Source: Anaerolineaceae bacterium
Lineage (GTDB): Bacteria; Chloroflexota; Anaerolineae; Aggregatilineales; Phototrophicaceae
Length of the DNA stretch: 37,839 nucleotides
Direction: 5' to 3'
Assembly: GCA_007693385.1 (NCBI GenBank)
Contig: REDR01000030.1
Coordinates: 1 to 37,839 of the forward strand
Part shown: in pieces, positions 26,272 through 37,758 of the stretch
Layout: every line of letters begins with the position of its first letter
Position numbering within the stretch: the stretch's first letter is position 1
Notes under the pieces: model-generated
What the model was told of the DNA's origin: nothing
Database searches by the model: none
What the model saw: the letters and a program-made list of their open reading frames with translations, nothing else
Translations under genes and position numbers: made by a program

Positions 26272-27186
26272 ATGTCAACAACGGACAAACGAAAGACGAA
26301 CCAAACCATGACACAAGCAGAAACCCTGCGCTTCGGCACTGTCGGCTCGCCACAGACCGCCACCAAAAGCGGCACGCCCGCCGCCATCGAACACAGCGCC
26401 GAACTCGGCCTGCATCATCTGGAGATCGCATGGACGCGGAGCGTCCGCGTCGGCGATGACACCTGCGCCGAGATCAAATCAGCGTCGCAGGCCAACGGCA
26501 TCAGCCTCAGCGTCCACGCGCCGTACTTCATCAACCTCAACAGCCAGACCGAAGAGAAGATGCAAGCCAGCGATGACCGCCTGCTGACCGCCTGCCGGAA
26601 GGGATTTTTAGCCGGTGCAACCGACATCGTTTTCCATCCCGGCAGTTATCACAAGCAACCGGCTGAGTTAGTGTACGAGCGCATCTGCGAGAAACTGACG
26701 GAGATCAGCGCCCGTCTGGAAGCCGAAGGCGTGGCCGTCACCTTGCGTCCGGAGACGATGGGGCGTGAATCCGTTTTCGGCTCGCTGGAAGAAGTCGTCG
26801 GCCTCAGTCGGGATGTGCCCAACGTCCTGCCGTGTGTGGATTGGGCGCATCTGCACGCCCGCGCCGGTGATGGTTCGTTCAACAGCTATGACGAATTCGC
26901 ACGGGCGCTAACGCTGATCCGCGATACGCTCGGCGAAGACGCGCTCGAACGGACGCACAATCACATCAGTGGCATCGCCTACACCGCCAAAGGTGAAAAA
27001 TCACATATCCCGCTCAATGAATCCGATTTACAATACCGTGAGCTATTGCAGGCGTTCCTTGATTTCGGCATGGGCGGCACCGTCGGCATCGAAGCGCCGC
27101 ATCCGTTCCACACGGCGGATTGTCTGGTCTTTCAGGCCACCTATCGCCGGTTATTAGACGAACAGGCGGAAAGAGAGAAAAACTAA
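26272..27186 (+). CDS. Endonuclease IV-like TIM-barrel protein (AP endonuclease family 2)
   Basis: A 304-residue protein with the TIM-barrel layout of Nfo/xylose isomerase-like enzymes. Likely zinc ligands are His in SVHAPYFINL, His in FHPGSYH, Glu in RPETMG, Asp and His in CVDWAHLHAR, His in HNHISG, His in EKSHIPL and Glu in GIEAPHP. The combination VHAPY...FHPGSYH with HISGI...KGEKSH is typical of endonuclease IV relatives. It would nick DNA 5' of abasic sites in base excision repair; a divergent sugar-isomerase-like role cannot be excluded. The start is uncertain: ATG at 26272 abuts the repeat cluster, while ATG at 26308 leads straight into the first strand (LRFGTVGSP). Neither has a clear ribosome-binding site. 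Confidence 0.82.
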   Translation: MSTTDKRKTNQTMTQAETLRFGTVGSPQTATKSGTPAAIEHSAELGLHHLEIAWTRSVRVGDDTCAEIKSASQANGISLSVHAPYFINLNSQTEEKMQASDDRLLTACRKGFLAGATDIVFHPGSYHKQPAELVYERICEKLTEISARLEAEGVAVTLRPETMGRESVFGSLEEVVGLSRDVPNVLPCVDWAHLHARAGDGSFNSYDEFARALTLIRDTLGEDALERTHNHISGIAYTAKGEKSHIPLNESDLQYRELLQAFLDFGMGGTVGIEAPHPFHTADCLVFQATYRRLLDEQAEREKN

Positions 27187-27188
27187 GC

Positions 27189-27587
27189 ATGGATCATAGC
27201 CCACCCGGATGCACGTCACGGCCACTTGTCGGCTGTTTCATCATCTTTCTCGTGATGATCTGCTCCGTGAGTAGCTTTGTGCTGGTCGGCGATCAGATGT
27301 GTCGTAACGAATTAAACAGCTATCTGCCACCATATCCTGACGCGGAACTGATCTACACCGACTATAATTTCATCCGGCCATTCGGCATCGGCCAGACGGT
27401 CAAGCAATACTACAGCGAAGACGACCCCATCACCATCCGCGCATGGTACGGCCCGTTCATCGCGGAGCGTTCGCGCACCAGACGATTAACGCGCGGTGAG
27501 TATCACGCGGTACGCGCCGACGACGGCGAAGGTTCGTATATCTTCCTCGTCGGGCGCTGTTTTCATGGCGGCACATTCCAGCCGTAA
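27189..27587 (+). CDS. Small membrane-anchored protein of unknown function
   Basis: A 132-residue protein with an N-terminal hydrophobic segment at about 12-34 (LVGCFIIFLVMICSVSSFVL) and an external domain of about 95 residues. Three Cys lie in or after the anchor (CRNEL early in the domain, GRCFHGG near the end), which could form a disulfide. The pattern YPDAELIYTDY...GQTVKQYYSEDDP...I(R)AWYGP is seen in small anchored proteins of unknown role. The ATG at 27189 lies two bases after the previous stop, so the gene is probably co-transcribed with the endonuclease-like gene. No function is assigned. Confidence 0.7.
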   Translation: MDHSPPGCTSRPLVGCFIIFLVMICSVSSFVLVGDQMCRNELNSYLPPYPDAELIYTDYNFIRPFGIGQTVKQYYSEDDPITIRAWYGPFIAERSRTRRLTRGEYHAVRADDGEGSYIFLVGRCFHGGTFQP

Positions 27588-27630
27588 CCACCGGATGAAC
27601 CCGGCACGATGAATCAGACGCAATAAATCG

Positions 27631-27656
27631 GGGGCGCAATGGATTGCGCCCCTACA
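27631..27656. repeat. REP-like palindrome, GCGCAAT subtype
   Basis: GGGGCGCAAT (27631-27640) and ATTGCGCCCC (27643-27652) are perfect 10-base arms around GG, followed by TACA. It matches the partial copies at about 5122-5141 and 18061. Confidence 0.85.
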
Positions 27657-27803
27657 CCCCCACCACACCAACAGAGAAAACCGTCGGGGCATCGCGCCCA
27701 CCGCCCAACCACACCAACAACACATTTGACTTTTCGAGTACAATAGTGTTTAACGCGATATTTTATAGGCGAAAAATTCGGTAACTAAGAGAAGTGATCG
27801 TTT

Positions 27804-29081
27804 ATGCCACCGACATTAAGACCTCAAATTATGGAGAAATTGCTCGACATCAGCCGCCAGATGGCGGAAACACGCGAATTAGACCCGTTGCTGAATTATG
27901 CAATGCTGGTCTCGCTGGAACTGGTAGAAGCGGAACAGGGCTATTTGATCCTCGTTGATGACCAGAACCAGCTTGACTTTCGCGTGCGGCTAGATCGCAA
28001 TGGCCGCCCCATCGAACAGCCCATCCAGCAGATCAGCCAGTCGATATTGAGTCGCGTCGTGTTTGAAGAAGCCGACGTGATTATCGCCGACGCGCTGAAG
28101 GACTCCGGCTATCAGGATGCGGAGAGCGTGGCCGCTTTGCGCCTGCGCTCGGTGATGGCCGTGCCGTTGATCTCACGCGGGCGCGTGTTGGGCGCGTTGT
28201 ACGTGGAAAATCGCTCCGAGTCTGGCGTTTTCATCTCCGAAGATTTGAAGATACTCAAGTTCTTCGCGGGGCAGGCCGCCGTCTCTATCGAGAACGCGAT
28301 GCTCAATGATGAGTTAGAAGCGCGTGTCGCCGCCCGCACCGCCGAGCTACAGGCCGCCAATGAGCAACTACAACATAACTGGCACGACGCCGTAGAGCAT
28401 AACCGCATCCGCACCAGCTTTTTAAGCACCATCGTCCACGACATACGCTCGCCACTCGCCACCGCGATGAACGCCCAGCAATTGATGTTAGAAGGCGCGT
28501 TCGGCGACCTCAACGACGATCAAGCGCATTGGGTGGGGACATCGCTCCGCACGCTGGAACACATCATCAAGCTGACCGACGACATCTTCGACCTGACCAA
28601 GCTGGAGATGCAAAAGTTGACGCTTCATCCGGAGCCGGTAGACTTCCGGACATTCCTTGAGCAGATGTACGAAATCGGGCGCGTGTTGCCATGGCAGGCG
28701 GCGGTCGATTTCCAGCTAAAGATTTACGACAACCTACCGCCGACGGTCAACATCGACAAGACGCGCATCCAGCAAGTTTTGATGAACCTCATCAGTAACG
28801 CGCACAAATTCACCGCAGAGGGCGCAGTGGTGTTATATGCCGGTGGTGTGGATGATGGCGTGGTGTTCGGCGTGCGCGACACGGGGGCGGGCGTCCACAA
28901 GAGGGATTTGCCGCACATCTTCGAGCGCTACAAACAAAGCGGCACCCGCCAGATGCGCCAGCAGGGGACGGGACTCGGCCTTGCCATCGTGCAGGAAATC
29001 GTCAACCTGCACAACGGCAAAATCACCGTGCAGAGCCAACCAGATGTCGGCTCTGATTTTCATGTCTGGTTGCCGATCTAG
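27804..29081 (+). CDS. GAF-domain sensor histidine kinase
   Basis: A 425-residue soluble kinase. A GAF domain spans about 20-170 (EAEQGYLILVDDQNQLDFRV, LRSVMAVPLISRGRVLGALY). A coiled coil (ARVAARTAELQAANEQLQ) follows. HisKA has H212 in IVHDIRSPLATAMNA, with Asp-Ile instead of the usual Glu-Leu after His. HATPase has NLISNAHKF, RDTGAGV, FERYKQSG and GTGLGLAIVQE. An AAGAGAAGTG stretch precedes the ATG. Its TAG stop shares CTAG with the stop of the convergent TPR gene, leaving no room for a separate terminator. No receiver is adjacent. The GAF ligand is unknown. Confidence 0.93.
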   Translation: MPPTLRPQIMEKLLDISRQMAETRELDPLLNYAMLVSLELVEAEQGYLILVDDQNQLDFRVRLDRNGRPIEQPIQQISQSILSRVVFEEADVIIADALKDSGYQDAESVAALRLRSVMAVPLISRGRVLGALYVENRSESGVFISEDLKILKFFAGQAAVSIENAMLNDELEARVAARTAELQAANEQLQHNWHDAVEHNRIRTSFLSTIVHDIRSPLATAMNAQQLMLEGAFGDLNDDQAHWVGTSLRTLEHIIKLTDDIFDLTKLEMQKLTLHPEPVDFRTFLEQMYEIGRVLPWQAAVDFQLKIYDNLPPTVNIDKTRIQQVLMNLISNAHKFTAEGAVVLYAGGVDDGVVFGVRDTGAGVHKRDLPHIFERYKQSGTRQMRQQGTGLGLAIVQEIVNLHNGKITVQSQPDVGSDFHVWLPI

Positions 29082-30445
29082 GCGCTATCGTCGAACGATT
29101 CTTCGTCGTCGCCTTCTTCGTCGTCATCCGGCGCGGCAGATGGCGGACGCGATCCGCCACAGCGCGGGATGGCGAAATTCTCGTAATCCGACGTAAGGCC
29201 GGTGTCGTTGGTCTGGCGGGCGATTGCCAGCCCCTGACTCATGTACGATAGCGCGGTGGTGCAGTCGCCATCCTGCCGGTAGGCATCCGCCAGCCAGTAC
29301 AACACATACCCATCAGACGGGCTTAACTCGTGGGCGCGGGTCAGATACTCGATGGCGGCACGCGGGTCAGCGAAGGCGGTTTCGGCTAGCAATGTGCGCC
29401 CCAGCCGGTACAAACACCGGAAGTTATCGGGGTCATTCTGCACACAGCGATCATAATAATTGAACGACTCCGCCGGATTGCCCTGATAGCGCGTGTAATA
29501 CATGCCCAACTCGAACAGCGCCAGCGTGTTAGACGGGTTCTGCTCCAGAATGCGCTGGAACGTACTCACCGCCCCCTCTTGATCGTCCATCAGATAAAGC
29601 TGGGCGCGGCCTACCCATATCCCCAGATAGGTCATGTACGGCGCGATCTCGAAAGCCTCCATGTAGCTCTCCATCGCGGTGGCGAAATCCAGATCGACTT
29701 CCTGCGCGATGCGCCCGCGAATATTCCACGCCTCGAAACTATCCGGATCAAGCTCTAGCGCTTGATTGACGTAAGTCCGCGCTAGATCAGTCTGGCGGAG
29801 CGCCAGATACGCCTCACCCATGAAGGCCAGCGCCCGCGCCCGCGATTTCGCCAGATCGGGCTGGGATTCCGCCGCGCTTTGCGGGGCGAGTTCCAGCGCA
29901 CGGGTGGCGGCCGCTATCGCCTCACGCGGGCTTTCCGTGCGGTTGAGCGTCATCGCCAGCACCGCCCACGCATCCGGCGAAAACGGACTCGCGGTGATGG
30001 CGACTTCGGCCTGCTCGACGGCTTCCAGATAGCGCCCTTGATTAACCAGCGCCATCGTCAGCCGGTAATGCGCCGAGAGGTCATTGGGCAGATACGGCAA
30101 GGCGCTGGTGTAATAGATGATGGCGTCCTCCATCGCGCCGCGTTCCCATGCGCGGACGGCCAGCGCGACATCATCGCCGGGGTCTGGCGTCGGCGGTAGC
30201 GGGGTAGCGCGTGCCTGTCGCACGGTATCGTCCGCCGTATCCAGCACATCGCCAACCACGCGCTGAATCTCCGGACGCACATCGTCCATATTCTGGTAGA
30301 CGTAAATCCCGCCGATCACCGCGCCGACGATGAACAACAACATCACCAGCCGGAAAACCGTCGAGAAACAGCCCCCGCCGCGCTTCTGATAACGATAGCC
30401 GCCGCGATAGCCGCCGCCCTTACGTCCACCACTATTCAAATACAT
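29078..30445 (-). CDS. Membrane-anchored TPR protein (paralogue 1 of 3)
   Basis: A 455-residue protein with a Gly/Arg/Tyr-rich N-terminus (GGRKGGGYRGGYRYQKRGGG), one membrane helix at about 30-50 (FRLVMLLFIVGAVIGGIYVY) and a Pro/Thr linker. About eight to nine tetratricopeptide repeats follow (for example AWERGAMEDAIIYYTSALPYLPND, LAVNQG..., NPAESFNYYDRCVQNDPDN), and a very acidic tail (DDDEEGDDEE). The TPR part should lie outside the membrane. It is the last of three related genes on the minus strand, three bases after the second, and ends on the stop of the opposite kinase. It probably scaffolds envelope protein complexes; partners are unknown. Confidence 0.88.
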   Translation of the reverse strand: MYLNSGGRKGGGYRGGYRYQKRGGGCFSTVFRLVMLLFIVGAVIGGIYVYQNMDDVRPEIQRVVGDVLDTADDTVRQARATPLPPTPDPGDDVALAVRAWERGAMEDAIIYYTSALPYLPNDLSAHYRLTMALVNQGRYLEAVEQAEVAITASPFSPDAWAVLAMTLNRTESPREAIAAATRALELAPQSAAESQPDLAKSRARALAFMGEAYLALRQTDLARTYVNQALELDPDSFEAWNIRGRIAQEVDLDFATAMESYMEAFEIAPYMTYLGIWVGRAQLYLMDDQEGAVSTFQRILEQNPSNTLALFELGMYYTRYQGNPAESFNYYDRCVQNDPDNFRCLYRLGRTLLAETAFADPRAAIEYLTRAHELSPSDGYVLYWLADAYRQDGDCTTALSYMSQGLAIARQTNDTGLTSDYENFAIPRCGGSRPPSAAPDDDEEGDDEESFDDSA

Positions 30446-30448
30446 CGG

Positions 30449-31774
30449 TTATACGCCTTCCGTCTGGTCATCTTCTTCTTGAAACGATTCGCCGTCCGGC
30501 GCTTCGTCATCCAATTCATCAAGTAGCGCGTCGAGTTCTTCCGGCTCGATCTCCTCTACCGATGGCATCAAGCCGCGATATTCGGGACAATCCCGCGTCA
30601 CGGCCTGCAAGCCGACCTGTATATTGTCCAGCACGCCGCTAACATCTTCGCCCTGACCGCGTGCGATCTGCGCTAGCAAAAGCGAATCCTGCAAGGTGTC
30701 CCATGCAAGCGTGCATTCTTCCAGATAATAGTAGGCCAGCCCCAACCGATGTTTACACGCATAACTCGATGGGTCAAGCTCCACACAGGCGGCGAAGCTA
30801 TCCCGTGCGGATTCCATACGGTAAGCGTTGTATTGCAACAAGCCCAGCTCGTACCATGCGCCCTGCGCGGTGGGGTCGGCCTCCACCGCATCCTCACAGA
30901 AGCCTATCGCCCGTTCAAACTGGCCGATCTTGCGGTACGTGCCGCACAGACGGCGCATAGCGCGGGCATTGCGCGGCTGAATCGCCAGCACGCGGTCATA
31001 AATGTTGATCGCCTCTTGATCGCGGTTCTGTGCCAGATAATGCAGGGCAAGCTCCATATAGGCGCTGATGTTGTTCGGGTCAAGCAGGATGGCGGCCTCT
31101 AGTTGCTCGATGGCGGCTTCGTTCTGGCGCACCCAGCTCAGCGCGTAGGCATAGGCGCGGCGGGCGTTGGCGTCCGTCGGGTCGCTGATGATCGCCATCT
31201 CTCCCGCCTCCACGCCGCGTACATACTGGCCGGAGTTGGTATACGCCCGCGCCAGCGCGGTGTATAGATGCGACTCGTAACCGGCGTTCAGTTCCAGCCC
31301 ATTGAGCGCGAAGGGAATCGCGCTGTTGGGATTGCCGGATGACACTTCAGCCATCGCCCGCAACGCATAGCCACGCGGGTCATCGGCGTTCAGGCTGATG
31401 ATGGCTTCGCCCTGTTCGCGGGTGATAGTCGGCTGGTTCATCTCGATCATCAGCCGCCCGTACTCATAGCGATAGGCGATGTTATTCGGGCGTTGCTCGA
31501 TGGCACGCTCGAACAGGTCGCGGGCTTGTGTCAGATCGCCGGTGACGGCCAACTGTGAGCCGAGCATCGCCAGATCAGCCGGAAGCGGCGTGGCGGTGGG
31601 CGCGGTGCCCATGAACTCCTGCGCCTGTAGTTCAAGCTGGCTGAAATTGGCGGAGATGTACAGCGCCACCCCGCCGACCAGTAACCCCAGCAGGAAAAGC
31701 CAGCGCCCATAATGGCGGCGCGGGCGGGCGGCCTTATTGAAAAAAGAGCGCTGATAATCGCGTTTCACGTACAT
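30449..31774 (-). CDS. Membrane-anchored TPR protein (paralogue 2 of 3)
   Basis: A 441-residue protein. Its N-terminus (MYVKRDYQRSFFNKAARPRR) closely resembles that of the third paralogue (MNIKRDPSRSFFAQKRR). A membrane helix at about 25-45 (LFLLGLLVGGVALYISANFS) and a Pro/Thr-containing linker follow, then about ten TPR units with the usual small-residue and Pro positions (DLFERAIEQRPNNIAYRYE, NIYDRVLAIQPRNARAMRR), and an acidic C-terminal tail. It lies 30 bases after paralogue 3 and three before paralogue 1, so a single transcript is likely. The role is inferred as an external scaffold in a complex with its paralogues. Confidence 0.88.
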   Translation of the reverse strand: MYVKRDYQRSFFNKAARPRRHYGRWLFLLGLLVGGVALYISANFSQLELQAQEFMGTAPTATPLPADLAMLGSQLAVTGDLTQARDLFERAIEQRPNNIAYRYEYGRLMIEMNQPTITREQGEAIISLNADDPRGYALRAMAEVSSGNPNSAIPFALNGLELNAGYESHLYTALARAYTNSGQYVRGVEAGEMAIISDPTDANARRAYAYALSWVRQNEAAIEQLEAAILLDPNNISAYMELALHYLAQNRDQEAINIYDRVLAIQPRNARAMRRLCGTYRKIGQFERAIGFCEDAVEADPTAQGAWYELGLLQYNAYRMESARDSFAACVELDPSSYACKHRLGLAYYYLEECTLAWDTLQDSLLLAQIARGQGEDVSGVLDNIQVGLQAVTRDCPEYRGLMPSVEEIEPEELDALLDELDDEAPDGESFQEEDDQTEGV

Positions 31775-31804
31775 ATAGGGGGTTCGCCTCGTAACAGGAT
31801 ACGG

Positions 31805-33064
31805 TCAGCCGCCAAAGCCACCGATGGGTGTCGGCGGGAGAGGTGTGGGCGGGACGGTTGTCGGGATCGGCTGGTCGCTGAAGTCGGGACTGCGCCGCGT
31901 GATCGCGTCCAGAATGTTGTCGATGTTCTCTACAATGATGCCCATACCACTCATATTAGAGGCAATCGCCCGCGCTTCGTTCGAGATTTCCCACGCTTCG
32001 GCGTAGTTAGCCAGCCGATAATGCGAAAAGCCCATCAGATAGCGGCATTCGATCAACTGCGAGCCATTCTCGATGCAGGCTTCAAAGGACTCAATCGCGC
32101 CTTCGTAGTTGCGGCGGACATATTGCATCTGGCCGCGCTGGGCGTAGGCATCGCCGTATTCAGGATTGATGGCGATGGCGCGGTCACAATATGGCTGGGC
32201 GATGTCGAACCGCGCTTGATCGACGGCGGCGTATGTCTGGCATAGCCGCAGGTAGGCGCGTTCGTTATCCGGACTCAATTCCAGAATGCGGTAATAGGTG
32301 GCAATCGCCATCGTTTGCTCGCCGACCTGCGCCAGACTATACAGCCGCGCCAGATAGAAATACGGCGTCACCAGATTAGGGTTCAGGCCGATAGCGGTCT
32401 CTAGCGCCTCAATCGCGCCGCGAAAGTCGCCGCGATAGGTGGCAGGCCATTGATACGACATCTGCACGAAGATGTCGTTCGGGTCTAGCTCACGGGCGCG
32501 GGTCGCCATGCGTAACCCTTCCTGCCAGCGTGCGAGATTGGTGTATGCCACGCCCTGAATCGCGTAGAGTGGCGCGAATTCCGGATCGCGGTCTATGCCC
32601 TGAATCGCCACCTGAATCGCTTGCGGCGGGTCGCTCCACATCAGCGAACGCGCCCGCAATGTATAGCCGCGTGGATCATCCGGCGCGACTTCTAGCGCTT
32701 GCGCGGCGATCTCCCGCGCTCTGTCGAAGCGGTCAGCCTCCATCAACATCATGCCCAACTCGTACAGATAGTCGATGTTGTTGGGGCGCATGGCGACAGC
32801 CTGCTCGAATTCGGCGATGGCCTCATCGAGTTCGCCGTCATAAAACAAGGTCTGGCCGCGTGTGGCGTGCTGGCTGGGGAGCATGGTCGGCTCCCCACTG
32901 ATATTCAAGGCGCGGAAGGCTTCGGCCTGTACCGCATCCATGTTGGCGAGATAAAGCGCGGTGAGTGCGGCGGCGAGCATGGTGAAGAAGAACAGAAACC
33001 GCGTGCTAGCACCGCGCCGCTTTTGTGCGAAGAACGAGCGCGACGGGTCGCGTTTGATATTCAT
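31805..33064 (-). CDS. Membrane-anchored TPR protein (paralogue 3 of 3)
   Basis: A 419-residue protein starting at the ATG whose product begins MNIKRDPSRSFF. An in-frame TTG 39 bases upstream is rejected because the paralogue aligns only from this ATG. It has a basic N-terminus, a membrane helix at about 23-42 (FLFFFTMLAAALTALYLANM), and about nine TPR units (GELDEAIAEFEQAVAMRPNN, YEGAIESFEACIENG). Its Pro/Thr/Gly tail (PTTVPPTPLPPTPIGGFGG) replaces the acidic tails of the other two. It is the first of the three paralogues, 87 bases downstream of the PspC gene on the same strand. The different tail suggests a different partner or location within a shared complex. Confidence 0.87.
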   Translation of the reverse strand: MNIKRDPSRSFFAQKRRGASTRFLFFFTMLAAALTALYLANMDAVQAEAFRALNISGEPTMLPSQHATRGQTLFYDGELDEAIAEFEQAVAMRPNNIDYLYELGMMLMEADRFDRAREIAAQALEVAPDDPRGYTLRARSLMWSDPPQAIQVAIQGIDRDPEFAPLYAIQGVAYTNLARWQEGLRMATRARELDPNDIFVQMSYQWPATYRGDFRGAIEALETAIGLNPNLVTPYFYLARLYSLAQVGEQTMAIATYYRILELSPDNERAYLRLCQTYAAVDQARFDIAQPYCDRAIAINPEYGDAYAQRGQMQYVRRNYEGAIESFEACIENGSQLIECRYLMGFSHYRLANYAEAWEISNEARAIASNMSGMGIIVENIDNILDAITRRSPDFSDQPIPTTVPPTPLPPTPIGGFGG

Positions 33065-33151
33065 AGTAACGTTAAAGTCCTCACGAAATACCCGTAAGAT
33101 CAACTCAATTATATAACGGGACGGGGTGAATCCTATGGTTGATCGGCGGGT

Positions 33152-33517
33152 TTAATGGCGCTTACGCTTGTTCTTCTCGCGCATTGCTTCAATTTCGCTG
33201 AGTGGACGGGCGTAGTGCAAGATGTCGTCGTCGTTCTTGCGCTTGCGCTTTGCATGATCGTCATCACGGACGGGCACATCTACCGTGCGCCGTTGACGAC
33301 GCGGCGCCGGAGCTGGCGCATCACGCAGGCCTTTCGGCATGACGAACATCATCAATAGGTAGCCCAGCAATACCATACCGCCGGACATGAAAAAGCCGAT
33401 GACGAACGCGACGCGAATCAACACCGGATCAATGCCGGTATATTCACCGATGCCGCCACATACGCCGGAGACAACGCGATTTTGTCTGGATTTACGTAGA
33501 TGTTTGTTTTGTCTCAT
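33152..33517 (-). CDS. PspC domain protein
   Basis: A 121-residue protein. Residues 8-65 are a PspC domain: basic start, NRVVSGVCGGIGEYTGIDPVLIRVAFV, a hydrophobic helix and GYLLMMFVMPK. A basic and acidic, probably disordered cytoplasmic tail follows. PspC proteins sit in the membrane and, in enterobacteria, take part in the phage-shock envelope-stress response; in many other bacteria the domain stands alone with unknown role. An AGGAGTGA site precedes the ATG. It is upstream of the three TPR genes and may head their transcript. Its promoter would lie at the edge of the origin-like region. Confidence 0.9.
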   Translation of the reverse strand: MRQNKHLRKSRQNRVVSGVCGGIGEYTGIDPVLIRVAFVIGFFMSGGMVLLGYLLMMFVMPKGLRDAPAPAPRRQRRTVDVPVRDDDHAKRKRKNDDDILHYARPLSEIEAMREKNKRKRH

Positions 33518-33611
33518 TGTCTGTCACTCCTGATGATCGTATCCATTATACATTACGCAAGGCCACATCGGACGGTTGCAAACCTTGCATTAAGGCGTTG
33601 CATTAAATCTG

Positions 33612-33674
33612 ATTTGGGATATTCAACGATTCATCAACGGAATATATCCCAAATATCGCAAATTTATCCCAAAT
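33612..33674. repeat. Left cluster of 11-bp motif WTATCCCAMRT
   Basis: Three copies: 33612-33622 (minus orientation), 33644-33654 (plus) and 33664-33674 (plus). Start distances are 32 and 20 bases, close to three and two helical turns. Confidence 0.85.
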
Positions 33675-33719
33675 GAATCCGGCGGAAATGCGCCATTTTA
33701 GCGCAGTGACGAATCCGCC

Positions 33720-33815
33720 TGTGCAAAACCTGTGCAAAACTGCGGTTTTTCGGTGCAAAACTTGTGCAAAAACCTGTGCATAAGTCGGGGTTAGTTGTGC
33801 ATAACCTGTGCAAAA
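33720..33815 (-). repeat. Phased DnaA-box array
   Basis: On the minus strand, TTTTGCACA or TTATGCACA, matching TTWTNCACA exactly, at 33720, 33731, 33763, 33775, 33796 and 33807. A one-mismatch copy lies at 33752. Successive starts are 11, 21, 11, 12, 21 and 11 bases apart. Further copies outside this core are 33913-33921 (exact), 33857-33865 and 33865-33873 (plus strand, one mismatch each) and 34026-34034 (plus strand, one mismatch). Confidence 0.85.
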
Positions 33816-33924
33816 ATAACGCGGTTTTGAACAGGCGATCCGCACTACTTCGTGGTTTTTGCACTTTTGCACCGTTGAAGTCTCAGACCTGTTCATAGTT
33901 GTGTACAGGCACTGTGCAAAACTT

Positions 33925-34007
33925 TTATCCCACATATCCCACATGATACATCGCACTTGGGATATAGACATGCTATATTTGGGATATAGCGCGAAGTTAT
34001 CCCACAT
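33925..34007. repeat. Right cluster of 11-bp motif WTATCCCAMRT
   Basis: Five copies: 33925-33935 and 33934-33944 (plus, overlapping), 33955-33965 and 33977-33987 (minus), and 33997-34007 (plus). Start distances are 9, 21, 22 and 20 bases. The fourth copy sits in a perfect inverted repeat, GCTATAT-TTGGG-ATATAGC (33972-33990). Confidence 0.85.
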
Positions 34008-34142
34008 CAAAGCGGCTGGTCAAAAGTTTTGTACAGATATGAACAGGCTACTACTACTATTCTTATAAAAAGACCATGACACAGAGAGATTCTTTTTTAT
34101 CTGCCGAAGACGAGCAAAATCTAACACAGACTCAAAAACGAT

Positions 34143-34159
34143 GTTACAATCTCTGTAAC
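34143..34159. promoter_or_regulatory. Inverted repeat upstream of the histidine kinase (possible operator)
   Basis: GTTACA-N5-TGTAAC is a perfect inverted repeat 41 bases before the GTG start at 34200. No regulator is known for it. Confidence 0.4.
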
Positions 34160-34199
34160 GCATAATAGCCGATGATATAAAGTGGGCGGAGCTGGCAAA

Positions 34200-35471
34200 G
34201 TGGCGAAAATTACACAGGCACACATCGACGCGCTGAAGCGCAAAGTCGAAAATTACAGGCAGATACTGGAAATCAACAATGTGCTGAACTCGGTTTTAAT
34301 CCGGCATGATGTCGGCATTGATGCCCTGCTACACTATTTGATGCAATCGGCAGTTAAGCTGACGGCCAGTGAGGGCGCGTCGGTCTTGCTGTGGGATGAA
34401 GAGCAGAACAAGCTCAAGTTCGCGGCCACGTCCACCGCCAACCGATCATCACGTAACATCATCGGCCAATCCGTGCCGCTTAACAGTCTGGCCGGGACGA
34501 TCTTCAAAGAGCGCCGCTTGATCGAAGTGGACAACATCACCGGCGATCCGCGTCACTATAGTCAGGTCGATCAAAACATCCAGTTTGAGACGCGCTCATT
34601 GCTCGGCGTGCCACTGGTATCCAACAACCGCGCTATCGGCGTGCTAGAAGTGGTCAATAAGCACACACTGCCATGGACGGAAGAAGACCGCGTAAACCTC
34701 AGCGTATTAGCCAGCGAAGCCGCCACCGCTATCGAAGTCGCGCAACTGATGCAGGCGCTACAACGCGCCAACGATGAACTGAACGAGCTGGATAAGCTGA
34801 AAAGCGATTTCATCGCCATCGCCAGCCACGAATTGCGGACGCCGTTGGGTATCATATTGGGCTATGCTAGCTTTCTACAGGAAGACGACGATAGCGCGGT
34901 CAGTATGCAGGCGACGAAAATCATGGAGGGGGCGCTTCAGTTGCGCCGCATCATCGAATCCATGATTAACCTGCGCTACATCAAACAGAAATCATCGGAG
35001 CTACATCTTCAGCCGGTACCGCTGACTAACCTCTTACAGGATATTAAGCATGATAGTCTGGCGATTCCGGGCGCGGCGTCGGTTGAGATACAGGTCGCAG
35101 GGGAGACTCCGGCGGTGGATGTGCTGATTGACCGCAGTCGAATCGCGATGGCGTTTCAGAGCATCATCAGCAATGCGGTCACTTTCAGCGAGGAAGGCGG
35201 GGCGATCACGCTGTCTGCTCATGTGGAAGGCGGACTGGGCTGTGTCAGCGTCCGCGACGACGGGCAAGGGATCGAGCCAGCCCAGTTAGAGCGCATCTTC
35301 GAGGAATTCTATCAGGTAGAAGATCACATGATCCGGCATCATGGCGGGCTGGGCATCGGCCTCAGCATCACCCGCGCTATCGTGCAGGCGCATAACGGCA
35401 AGGTGTGGGCGAAAAGTGACGGCATTGGTCATGGCGCGACATTCACAGTCGCCTTGCCTCTGGTAAAATAA
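34200..35471 (+). CDS. GAF-domain sensor histidine kinase beside the origin-like region
   Basis: A 423-residue soluble kinase. The GTG at 34200 is preferred to the in-frame GTG at 34182 because GGAG lies eight bases upstream. A GAF domain spans about 20-175 (ASEGASVLLWDEEQNKLKFA, ETRSLLGVPLVSNNRAIGVL), then a coiled coil. HisKA has H210 in IASHELRTPLGIILGYA. HATPase has an N-box SIISNAVTF, RDDGQGI, FEEFYQVED and GLGIGLSITRA. All catalytic motifs are present. It is transcribed away from the origin-like region, and the CopCD gene follows 73 bases later on the same strand. The partner regulator is unknown. Confidence 0.92.
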   Translation: MAKITQAHIDALKRKVENYRQILEINNVLNSVLIRHDVGIDALLHYLMQSAVKLTASEGASVLLWDEEQNKLKFAATSTANRSSRNIIGQSVPLNSLAGTIFKERRLIEVDNITGDPRHYSQVDQNIQFETRSLLGVPLVSNNRAIGVLEVVNKHTLPWTEEDRVNLSVLASEAATAIEVAQLMQALQRANDELNELDKLKSDFIAIASHELRTPLGIILGYASFLQEDDDSAVSMQATKIMEGALQLRRIIESMINLRYIKQKSSELHLQPVPLTNLLQDIKHDSLAIPGAASVEIQVAGETPAVDVLIDRSRIAMAFQSIISNAVTFSEEGGAITLSAHVEGGLGCVSVRDDGQGIEPAQLERIFEEFYQVEDHMIRHHGGLGIGLSITRAIVQAHNGKVWAKSDGIGHGATFTVALPLVK

Positions 35472-35544
35472 GGGTTGGCGGCGTGGCGTGGATTGTCCAC
35501 GACGCGCCACAGTCTACAACCTATCAGAGAGTGTGCGATCACCG

Positions 35545-37758
35545 ATGATCTACCGCGTTTTATTGCTCCTTTTCGTGACTTCTTTCATCACATTAGCCCC
35601 CGCACAACCGGCGGAGGCGCACGGCTATCTCGTCCGCGCTATACCGGAAAACCGCGCCGTATTAGAGCGCCCACCCACCCGACTACAATACTGGTTCAGC
35701 GAAGCGTTAGAGCCGGAATTCAGCATCGTCAATCTGCGCGACCAGCGCGGCGAGATTCTCGCCAGTGGTGGCCTGAATGAAAACGACAACCGCCTTTTGA
35801 CTTTGCGCGTGCCCGACGGATTGCCGGATGGCGCGTACATCGTGGAATTGCGTCCGGCGTTCGCCAGCGATGGGCATGTCGTGGCGGAGAGCCGCGTCTT
35901 TTTCGTCGGGGAGGAGATCGGCGGGGTGGCCGGTGCCGGTGTGACGACATCGGCCATCCCGCTAGAAGTGGCGTGGCGTTCGGTGGCGGTCACGTCGGCC
36001 ATGATCTTATTCGGCACGTCGATCTTGTACGTGCTGGTACTGGTTCCGGCGTGGGGGAGCGCGAAGCATCCCGCCGGATTGTTGCCGCCGCGTGTCATGC
36101 GTCGACTGAATGTGATCTTCGGCTATGCGCTGGTCGGCGCGTTCGCCGCGAACATGGTCGGCTTGATCCAGCAGACGATGGCCTTTTTCAACGTGGATTT
36201 TGCGCGGGCGCTTGGCCCGGAATTCTGGGGACTGGTGCGCGTTGGTTCACGCTTTGGCGACATCTGGAACTGGCGTATGATGTTTCTCGGCGTGGTTGGC
36301 GGCCTGTTCCTGCTGAGTTTATTCCAGCGCGAGAGTCAGCCGGGCGCGGTTCGCGCTTACTGGGTGGCGAATACGTGGATGCTGGCGCTGGTTATCGGCA
36401 GTCATAGCGTGCTGAGTCACGCGGCGGGGTCGTTGCTGTGGCCGTGGGTGGCGGTGACATTCGATTGGTTCCACGCGCTGGCCGTCGGCTTCTGGGCGGG
36501 CGGGTTGGTGGCGCTGGCGCTGGTGTTGCCGGTCGCGCTCAGTCCGTATAGCGGCGATGCCCGCCGTCAGGCATTGCTGGCGGCTCTGCGGCGCTTCAGC
36601 CCGATAGCGTTCGGCGCGGTGCTGGTGGTGGTGACAACCGGCATTTACGGCGCGACTAACTGGATTTTCAGCGCGGCGGATGTTCGCACCGAATTCGGCG
36701 GTACGCTGGCCTTCAAGATCGTGCTGGCGGCGGCGTTGTTGTCGTTCGGCGCGTGGCATCACATCGCGCTGAATCCGGCGCGGTTCGCCCGTCTGGAGCG
36801 ACTGGTCGCGGGCGCTCGTCGCCTTCTGCCGACTGTTCGCATCGAAGCGGTTTTCGCGGTGCTGGTCTTATTCTCCGCGTCGGCATTGAGCGCCACGCCG
36901 ATTCCTCAGCCGGATTTCATCGTCGGCGATGTCGCCACGCCCAACCAGACGCGACAAATCGGCGATTTAACCGTCGAGATGAGCGTCGTTCCGGGCGGGC
37001 CGGGCGTCAACACGCACGACACGCGCATCACCCGCGACGGGCAAAACGTGAACGGCGTCGAGCTGGTGCTGGTCAATGCGCGTCCGGATACCGCGTTTCG
37101 CAGTCCGGCGCATATCTTGGAGACGGTAGAAGATGGCCTATACGTGACCGCCACCGACGACATCAGCGCGGCGGGGCGCTGGTGGAGCGTGGTTGATCTG
37201 ACTACGCCGGAAGGCGAAGCGCACCGGCTGGCCTTCGAGTGGGACATCGACTCCGCCGCGTCGGTGGTGCAGTCCATCGACCCGCGCCCGCAACACGTCC
37301 TCGCGCTGGGGTTGGTGCTGGCCGCGTTGATGTGGGTGGCGTATCCGTTCGTGCGGCGCGGCCTGCTGGCGTTGAACTTCGATATTGCCAGCGTGACCGT
37401 CGCATTCGTCGCGGTGGTCGTCACCGCGCTGGTGATGGTCGGCGGGTATATCATCATCCAACAAACCCGCGACGATTACGCGCAATCCATCCGGCCACCG
37501 GCGCAGGTGGTGAACGCCGTCCTGCCGACGCAGGCCAGCCTTGAGCGTGGCGCGGCGCTGTACGCCGACTATTGCATCGAATGGCAACGGCAATCACGCG
37601 ATTTCAACGCGCTCCGCGCCCGTCTGGATACCATCCGCGATGATGACCTGTATTTTGTGGTGGCGGAGGGCTGGCGCGGGTTGGCGGCCTGTGGCGCGGT
37701 GATGGAAGAAGATCAGCGCTGGGATGTGGTGAATTATCTGCGGACGCTGGTGCGGTAG
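35545..37758 (+). CDS. CopC-CopD fusion, predicted copper uptake protein with degenerate cytochrome-like tail
   Basis: A 737-residue protein. A signal peptide (1-25) ends AEA, so the mature protein would begin at H26 (HGYLVRA). CopC domains bind Cu(II) through an N-terminal His, and a second typical ligand pair lies in SDGH (D109, H111). The CopC domain spans about 26-130. CopD follows with about eight membrane helices (about 145-455), an external domain (about 465-575) and two further helices (about 590-660). The tail (about 668-737) looks like cytochrome c (GAALYADYC..., RWDVVNYLRTL), but CxxCH is replaced by C677-I-E-W-Q681, so haem attachment is lost. The ATG at 35545 is chosen because it begins the signal peptide. 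The predicted role is copper import or handling at the membrane, as in YcnJ. Confidence 0.87.
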   Translation: MIYRVLLLLFVTSFITLAPAQPAEAHGYLVRAIPENRAVLERPPTRLQYWFSEALEPEFSIVNLRDQRGEILASGGLNENDNRLLTLRVPDGLPDGAYIVELRPAFASDGHVVAESRVFFVGEEIGGVAGAGVTTSAIPLEVAWRSVAVTSAMILFGTSILYVLVLVPAWGSAKHPAGLLPPRVMRRLNVIFGYALVGAFAANMVGLIQQTMAFFNVDFARALGPEFWGLVRVGSRFGDIWNWRMMFLGVVGGLFLLSLFQRESQPGAVRAYWVANTWMLALVIGSHSVLSHAAGSLLWPWVAVTFDWFHALAVGFWAGGLVALALVLPVALSPYSGDARRQALLAALRRFSPIAFGAVLVVVTTGIYGATNWIFSAADVRTEFGGTLAFKIVLAAALLSFGAWHHIALNPARFARLERLVAGARRLLPTVRIEAVFAVLVLFSASALSATPIPQPDFIVGDVATPNQTRQIGDLTVEMSVVPGGPGVNTHDTRITRDGQNVNGVELVLVNARPDTAFRSPAHILETVEDGLYVTATDDISAAGRWWSVVDLTTPEGEAHRLAFEWDIDSAASVVQSIDPRPQHVLALGLVLAALMWVAYPFVRRGLLALNFDIASVTVAFVAVVVTALVMVGGYIIIQQTRDDYAQSIRPPAQVVNAVLPTQASLERGAALYADYCIEWQRQSRDFNALRARLDTIRDDDLYFVVAEGWRGLAACGAVMEEDQRWDVVNYLRTLVR

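Follow-up and report, generated by a model that had tools for sequence, protein, structure and literature searches.

A phased DnaA-box array apart from dnaA as a candidate chromosomal origin in an Anaerolineaceae bacterium, with box drift and absence of dnaA among its relatives

The box array and the putative unwinding module

Does a dense, helically phased cluster of DnaA boxes that lies on a different contig from dnaA mark an origin of chromosomal replication? The question is raised by contig C137 (37,839 nucleotides, referred to throughout in its full length as the window), one of 137 contigs in a 3.59 Mb draft genome of an Anaerolineaceae bacterium, placed by GTDB in the family Phototrophicaceae. 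An original prediction had proposed an oriC here, away from dnaA, and the dnaA gene of this genome is indeed located on another contig, C3; its product is confirmed as DnaA by TIGR00362 with a score of 444 bits against a cut-off of 343.9.

The seven exact copies of TTWTNCACA that had been claimed are present at 33720–33921, all on the minus strand, and the window as a whole contains 12, compared with 1.19 expected from shuffled sequences. Six of the seven belong to the phased core, which is completed by a mismatched box at 33752, and the seventh is the outlying box at 33913 (Table 1). The core boxes start where predicted, at 33720, 33731, 33752, 33763, 33775, 33796, and 33807, with 11, 21, 11, 12, 21, and 11 bp between successive starts. 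One-mismatch copies were correctly said to cluster here, but five rather than four are found at 33720–34035 (33752, 33825, 33857, 33865, and 34027), and the single orientation described for the core holds there only, the boxes at 33825, 33857, 33865, and 34027 being on the plus strand. Scored by the consensus of the family, TTWTNNACA, the array has nine sites in 315 bp and the densest other 315 bp of the window has one; no second pair of TTWTNCACA sites within 30 bp is found elsewhere in the 3.59 Mb draft genome. Clustering of DnaA boxes far above chance, which is a criterion for an oriC, is met at the array. The region between the two neighboring genes is non-coding, and the statements that these genes point outward and that AT-rich segments lie on both sides are likewise borne out (AT fraction 0.66 at 33600–33649 and 0.72 at 34050–34099).

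Table 1. Features of the array region, in window coordinates, with strand where one applies.
Feature	Position	Strand	Remark
PspC-domain gene	33152–33517	−	Left neighbor
Left TATCCCA cluster	33613–33673		Binder unknown
Phased core of seven DnaA boxes	33720–33815	−	Mostly TTWTGCACA
Box TTTTGAACA	33825–33833	+	Type GA, the commonest dinucleotide in the family
Two one-mismatch boxes, TTTTGCACT and TTTTGCACC	33857–33873	+	
Outlying box TTTTGCACA	33913–33921	−	
Right TATCCCA cluster	33926–34006		Between array and unwinding module; binder unknown
Tandem boxes of the unwinding module, TTTTGTACA (34027–34035) and ATATGAACA (34037–34045)	34027–34045	+	
DnaA-trios CTACTACTACTA	34048–34059	+	3'-GAT-5' on the other strand; as defined in the part of PMC8287927 available
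AT-rich stretch beside the trios	34060–34110		Probable start of unwinding; unwinding inferred
GAF/HisKA/HATPase sensor kinase gene	34182–35471	+	After the unwinding end of oriC

Two tandem boxes are followed by DnaA-trios that begin 12 bp past the first of them. The basal unwinding system (BUS) of bacterial oriC, as described in the portion of PMC8287927 accessible to us, consists of a DnaA box, a spacer whose length peaks at 10–13 bp, and 3'-GAT-5' trios. When the criterion is taken as a box, a spacer of about 10–13 bp, and at least three trinucleotides with a middle A, it is met at 34027–34059 with a spacer of 12 bp, and as judged from sequence alone this segment fits the published BUS; that DnaA would open the strands there is inferred. 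The segment resembles the BUS of Bacillus subtilis and others, so far as that source was available, in its tandem boxes, its spacer of 12–13 bp, its repeated 3'-GAT-5' trios, and the AT-rich DNA beyond, and differs from it in that the boxes of the family are TTWTNNACA, not TTATCCACA, and in that oriC lies far from dnaA. Distance from dnaA is also a property of Escherichia coli oriC (same partial source), which differs from the present locus in its neighbor gene, here a GAF histidine kinase, and in its BUS score, called relatively weak there, whereas the trios in the window are clear.

The sites, their phasing, and the trios are observed directly. In the mechanism that we propose, DnaA would assemble on the helically phased array along one face of the DNA, although binding is inferred; a DnaA filament would then extend from the tandem boxes at 34027–34045 over the trios at 34048–34059, and it would open the AT-rich DNA past them, where the helicase would be loaded, unwinding being likewise inferred. 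We regard it as very probable that the array is a chromosomal oriC detached from dnaA, with the reservation that binding, unwinding, and initiation are all inferences.

Conservation of the element and GC skew in relatives

Conservation in relatives had been suggested as a check on the predicted origin, and it is observed: the element composed of two boxes, spacer, and trios occurs in 50 of 98 family genomes (the union of two patterns, counted by hand), and its boxes are phased at each of the 43 loci that were measured. A first pattern matches in 43 of the 98 genomes and its reversed control in 2, and a relaxed pattern matches in 42 with its reversed control in 1. The 12 or 13 bp length of the spacer and the CTACTA, found in 43/43, follow from the search pattern and are not independent evidence, and one box per array in the count that follows is fixed in the same way. 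The 43 family arrays contain 7–12 copies of TTWTNNACA per 560 bp (mean 9.2, expected 0.47), and same-strand neighbors are separated by 10–12, 20–23, or 30–34 bp in 161 of 210 cases (79, 63, and 19, respectively); an extra pattern match in G013 (C1:234688) was left out of the array counts. It speaks against the oriC reading that 20 of the 66 family genomes that bear dnaA lack the element by either pattern. In G027, which is one of these, a variant element is visible on reading, beside ten boxes. The element is also present without a DnaA match in G088, G026, G017, and G020, assemblies of 20, 1180, 850, and 1260 contigs, respectively, which counts against a strict pairing of the element with dnaA.

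A cumulative GC-skew minimum at the array was another check suggested, and when it is run on relatives it too is passed, with minima observed at the element in G027 and G007. According to twenty samples along the single 5.63 Mb contig of G027, the principal change of skew from negative to positive falls between 0.66 and 0.94 Mb; a single sample, at 4.30 Mb, does not fit. In a continuous scan of 672–924 kb, cumulative skew is lowest at 843,285, and boxes are densest at 844,463–844,823; the array is thus 1.2 kb from the skew minimum of the 252 kb scanned and 0.84 Mb away from dnaA, which is located at ∼1 kb. The minimum of 655–695 kb in G007 falls at 675,682, close to the element at 674,863–675,161 on a contig of 863 kb, where the sampled skew changes sign three more times farther off; in G027, too, sign changes are seen at other sampled places. 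The skew passes from −0.032 to +0.031 across the element in G066, and from −0.072 on the left of the array to +0.073 on its right in the window, where the cumulative minimum at 30,920, 2.8 kb left of the array, refers to the window only and not to the whole replicon.

These observations bear on two readings in which the array is not a chromosomal origin. The phased direct repeats are iteron-like and the contig is short and unplaced, as would suit a plasmid origin or that of another secondary replicon; such an origin is nevertheless extremely improbable, given that no replication-initiator family is detected in the eight window proteins scanned (26,272–37,758) and that the element lies at the skew minimum found on the 5.63 Mb contig in G027 and on the 863 kb contig in G007. 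A gene similar to the kinase gene is moreover found at 36 of the 45 other oriC loci of the family (no distance came from the script for G007, G008, and G027, and the first two were inspected by eye). That same count, together with the position of the array between divergent genes, is what could be expected if the array instead controlled transcription of the kinase gene or of the PspC-domain gene, with DnaA or some other regulator as its binder and without being an origin; for the PspC-domain gene itself, the 45 other loci, most of which are ∼3 kb long, yield no match at E 1e-8. Trios after two boxes and skew minima in relatives would be unexpected of a promoter, as would the absence of the element where dnaA is absent in the genus g17 described below, and we hold a control region without origin function to be highly unlikely. 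Both readings were set aside on these grounds. The interpretation of the locus as oriC is upheld by the sites, their conservation, and the skew of relatives; the original prediction had missed the DnaA-trios, the TATCCCA motif, the wider family form of the box, TTWTNNACA, and the fact that a related genus has lost dnaA.

Box positions 5 and 6 and DnaA residue 433

The exact sites in the window have C at position 6 (TTWTNCACA), and most family boxes do not, the consensus for the family being TTWTNNACA. The dinucleotide at positions 5 and 6 in 397 family boxes is GA in 200, CG in 68, GC in 48, CT in 30, CA in 22, AG in 16, and another in 13; CC is absent from these 397 boxes. The two positions appear to change together within a genome: box pairs from one genome share the dinucleotide in 61% of cases, compared with 31% (maximum 35%) after a permutation that ignores the relatedness of genomes. 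In a sister family, f3, the dnaA locus of G056 (L178) contains seven TTWTCTACA sites, which suggests that boxes have drifted beyond this one family.

Taxon-specific boxes with the core TTCAC, accompanied by an altered DNA-binding motif of DnaA, are described for Epsilonproteobacteria in the part of PMC5043019 that was available, and the likeness to the present family is that a whole group has its own box together with a changed DnaA domain IV. That source, to the same extent, proposes a common core for the class, whereas here positions 5 and 6 vary within one family, and the variation takes in position 6, the C of TTWTNCACA. Among the literature matches listed for DnaA specificity and box divergence, as far as their titles and the beginnings of their abstracts indicate, none concerns box drift within one family, and among those for Aggregatilineales with dnaA none is on the present subject by title.

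Residue D433 is described as conserved among all classes and as interacting with box position 7 in the section of PMC8235120 at our disposal. None of 65 family DnaAs (the fragment from G086 being left out) has Asp where E. coli has D433; this residue of the recognition helix is instead Ser, Thr, Ala, Lys, Arg, Asn, or Gln. The criterion of a canonical domain IV, Asp at D433, is not met by the DnaA of the source genome, which has Arg at this position and also at that of L438. From the same order, 22 of 23 DnaA loci are readable and have Asp in 9, Asn in 11, His in 1, and Ser in 1; in G041 and G047, which have Asp433, TTATCCACA sites are found beside dnaA. In the family, where DnaA is without the usual Asp433, the box has, in our interpretation, relaxed or drifted from TTATCCACA to TTWTNNACA, any causal link between residue 433 and the box being inferred.

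Which residue replaces Asp433 does not fix the box, and there is no simple code. Arg433 is paired with GC boxes in the source genome and with GA boxes in G082 and G084; in three of the genomes with Ser433 (G064, G065, and G068), too, A is infrequent at position 6 of the boxes. On a tree of DnaA without domain IV, which contains several long branches and from which G028 was left out as a DnaA fragment, the Ala label needs three changes. Independent pairs that set residue 433 against position 6 agree in 1.8 of 2 cases on average, with none opposite. Since independent pairs are too few, the association between Ala433 and position 6 cannot reach significance.

It is quite possible, at something short of even chances, that the locus is an oriC but that its box differences carry no information about DnaA, which would read only TTWT and ACA while positions 5 and 6 drift neutrally; the likeness of boxes within a genome would then come from duplication of an 11 bp unit, gene conversion, or shared descent. 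Such neutral drift is compatible with the mixed genomes, several of which carry three or more dinucleotides, with the occurrence of Ser433 alongside GA, GC, CG, and AG arrays, and with the phylogenetically independent test, which comprises only 2–3 pairs and has a median p of 0.5. It is less easily reconciled with the eight genomes that have Ala433, among whose 73 boxes A stands at position 6 just once, in a GA, as against GA in 62 of 93 boxes with Thr433 (10 genomes) and in 37 of 45 with Lys433 (5 genomes). The 10 nt on either side of the boxes have similarities of 0.389 and 0.338 within genomes and 0.365 and 0.317 between genomes, and because flanks are barely more alike within than between genomes, the copying of units explains the coherence of arrays poorly.

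The TATCCCA motif and genomes without dnaA

A second motif, TATCCCA, occurs in two clusters in the window (Table 1). Its frequency is 3.65 per 700 bp of oriC, compared with 0.09 expected, with two or more copies in 36 of 43. At 29 of 43 dnaA loci at least one copy is found in a segment made up of the 300 bp upstream of dnaA and 60 bp of its frame, and 43 kb of dnaA coding sequence contain one. The source genome has further pairs ahead of dnaN, rplJ, and a cinA-like gene, and also within a ligA frame; the clusters upstream of dnaA and dnaN are at L006 2645–2860 and L196 1501–1527, and four copies lie inside the ligA reading frame at L194 1501–1589. As regards the possibility that TATCCCA serves as a second DnaA site, all six dnaA-less genomes of the genus g17 that were searched have TATCCCA pairs, and the reversed control has pairs in 3 of 14 genomes, none of them among these six. 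However, the sole pair in each of G107, G106, and G090, and one of those in each of G102, G116, and the dnaA-bearing G103, fall in a single conserved coding sequence (the coding frame is shown for G107 and G103, and similar sequence is seen in the other four).

Bac_DnaA_C is present in 66 of the 98 family genomes, and 28 of the 32 without it belong to g17, a genus represented by 34 genomes. A search of these 28 with Bac_DnaA gives only two weak neighboring matches each; two or more such matches occur in 37 of 38 family genomes searched, and the protein of the source genome that has such a pair is placed by NCBIfam among DnaC/DnaI/IstB-like ATPases. A DnaC/DnaI-like protein of tandem-AAA+ type is encoded at L007 1171–2589; its N-terminus is cysteine-rich, and it may be a double helicase loader.

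The gene order tkt, spoVS, dnaA, vWA gene is whole in G103, G111, and G114 and partial in G113 and G096, and spoVS adjoins dnaA also in G091 and in the source genome, in which the SpoVS gene (L006 3092–3406) is divergent from dnaA. The vWA gene is present in 34 of 34 g17 genomes, and its locus was read in 30, those of G104, G100, and G099 being excluded. It is beside dnaA in 5 of 5 loci from dnaA-bearing genomes; G091 carries dnaA on one contig and the vWA gene on another. In 24 of the 25 dnaA-less loci spoVS and tkt lie beside the vWA gene with no dnaA, and the 25th, in G109, is cut by the contig end. The gap between spoVS and the vWA gene in the 24, 249–643 bp on one contig, is too small for a dnaA gene, and drop-out of dnaA from the assembly was therefore rejected for these loci; nor is any DnaA match better than E 0.7 found there. 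The box-trio element is found in 4 of the 6 g17 genomes with dnaA and in 0 of the 28 without. When the dnaA label is mapped on a tree of the vWA protein, it requires no fewer than two changes; if only losses were allowed, about six would be required in our reading of the tree, and thus a return of dnaA by recombination is possible.

The sampled skew changes sign 10 times in 19 steps in the dnaA-less G107 (irregular), 2 times in 9 in the dnaA-less G116 (regular), and once in 9 in the dnaA-bearing G103, where it is regular; along 700 kb of G107:C5 (L347–L366) the skew is irregular, unlike that of G116. Homologs of the two TPR genes of the window are found in G116 (L387 4193–6664), where they lie close to a switch in GC skew and are not accompanied by a box array. 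Free-living cyanobacteria without dnaA are reported in the part of PMC7198777 that was accessible, and g17 is similar in having mostly lost dnaA, but it belongs to another phylum and dnaA is gone from between conserved neighbors; among the matches listed for dnaA loss, which were available only in part, none is on Chloroflexota.

A fuller scenario would connect these observations, and we offer it as a conjecture that is unlikely to be correct in its entirety. Loss of Asp433 would have let box position 6 drift with the recognition residue, and an unknown protein that binds TATCCCA at oriC and the dnaA promoter would have taken over part of the control of initiation; dnaA would thus have become dispensable, and g17 would have lost dnaA and the box-trio element together, possibly several times.

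The kind of oriC described here is already known; what is new is that the box drifts, that Asp433 is missing, and that one genus is mostly without dnaA. By inference, origin finders that look for TTATCCACA close to dnaA may overlook origins of this sort. With residue 433 never Asp in 65 proteins, with boxes that are coherent in each array yet variable among species, and with the loss of dnaA in g17, the family constitutes a natural series for how DnaA reads DNA and for how bacteria do without DnaA.
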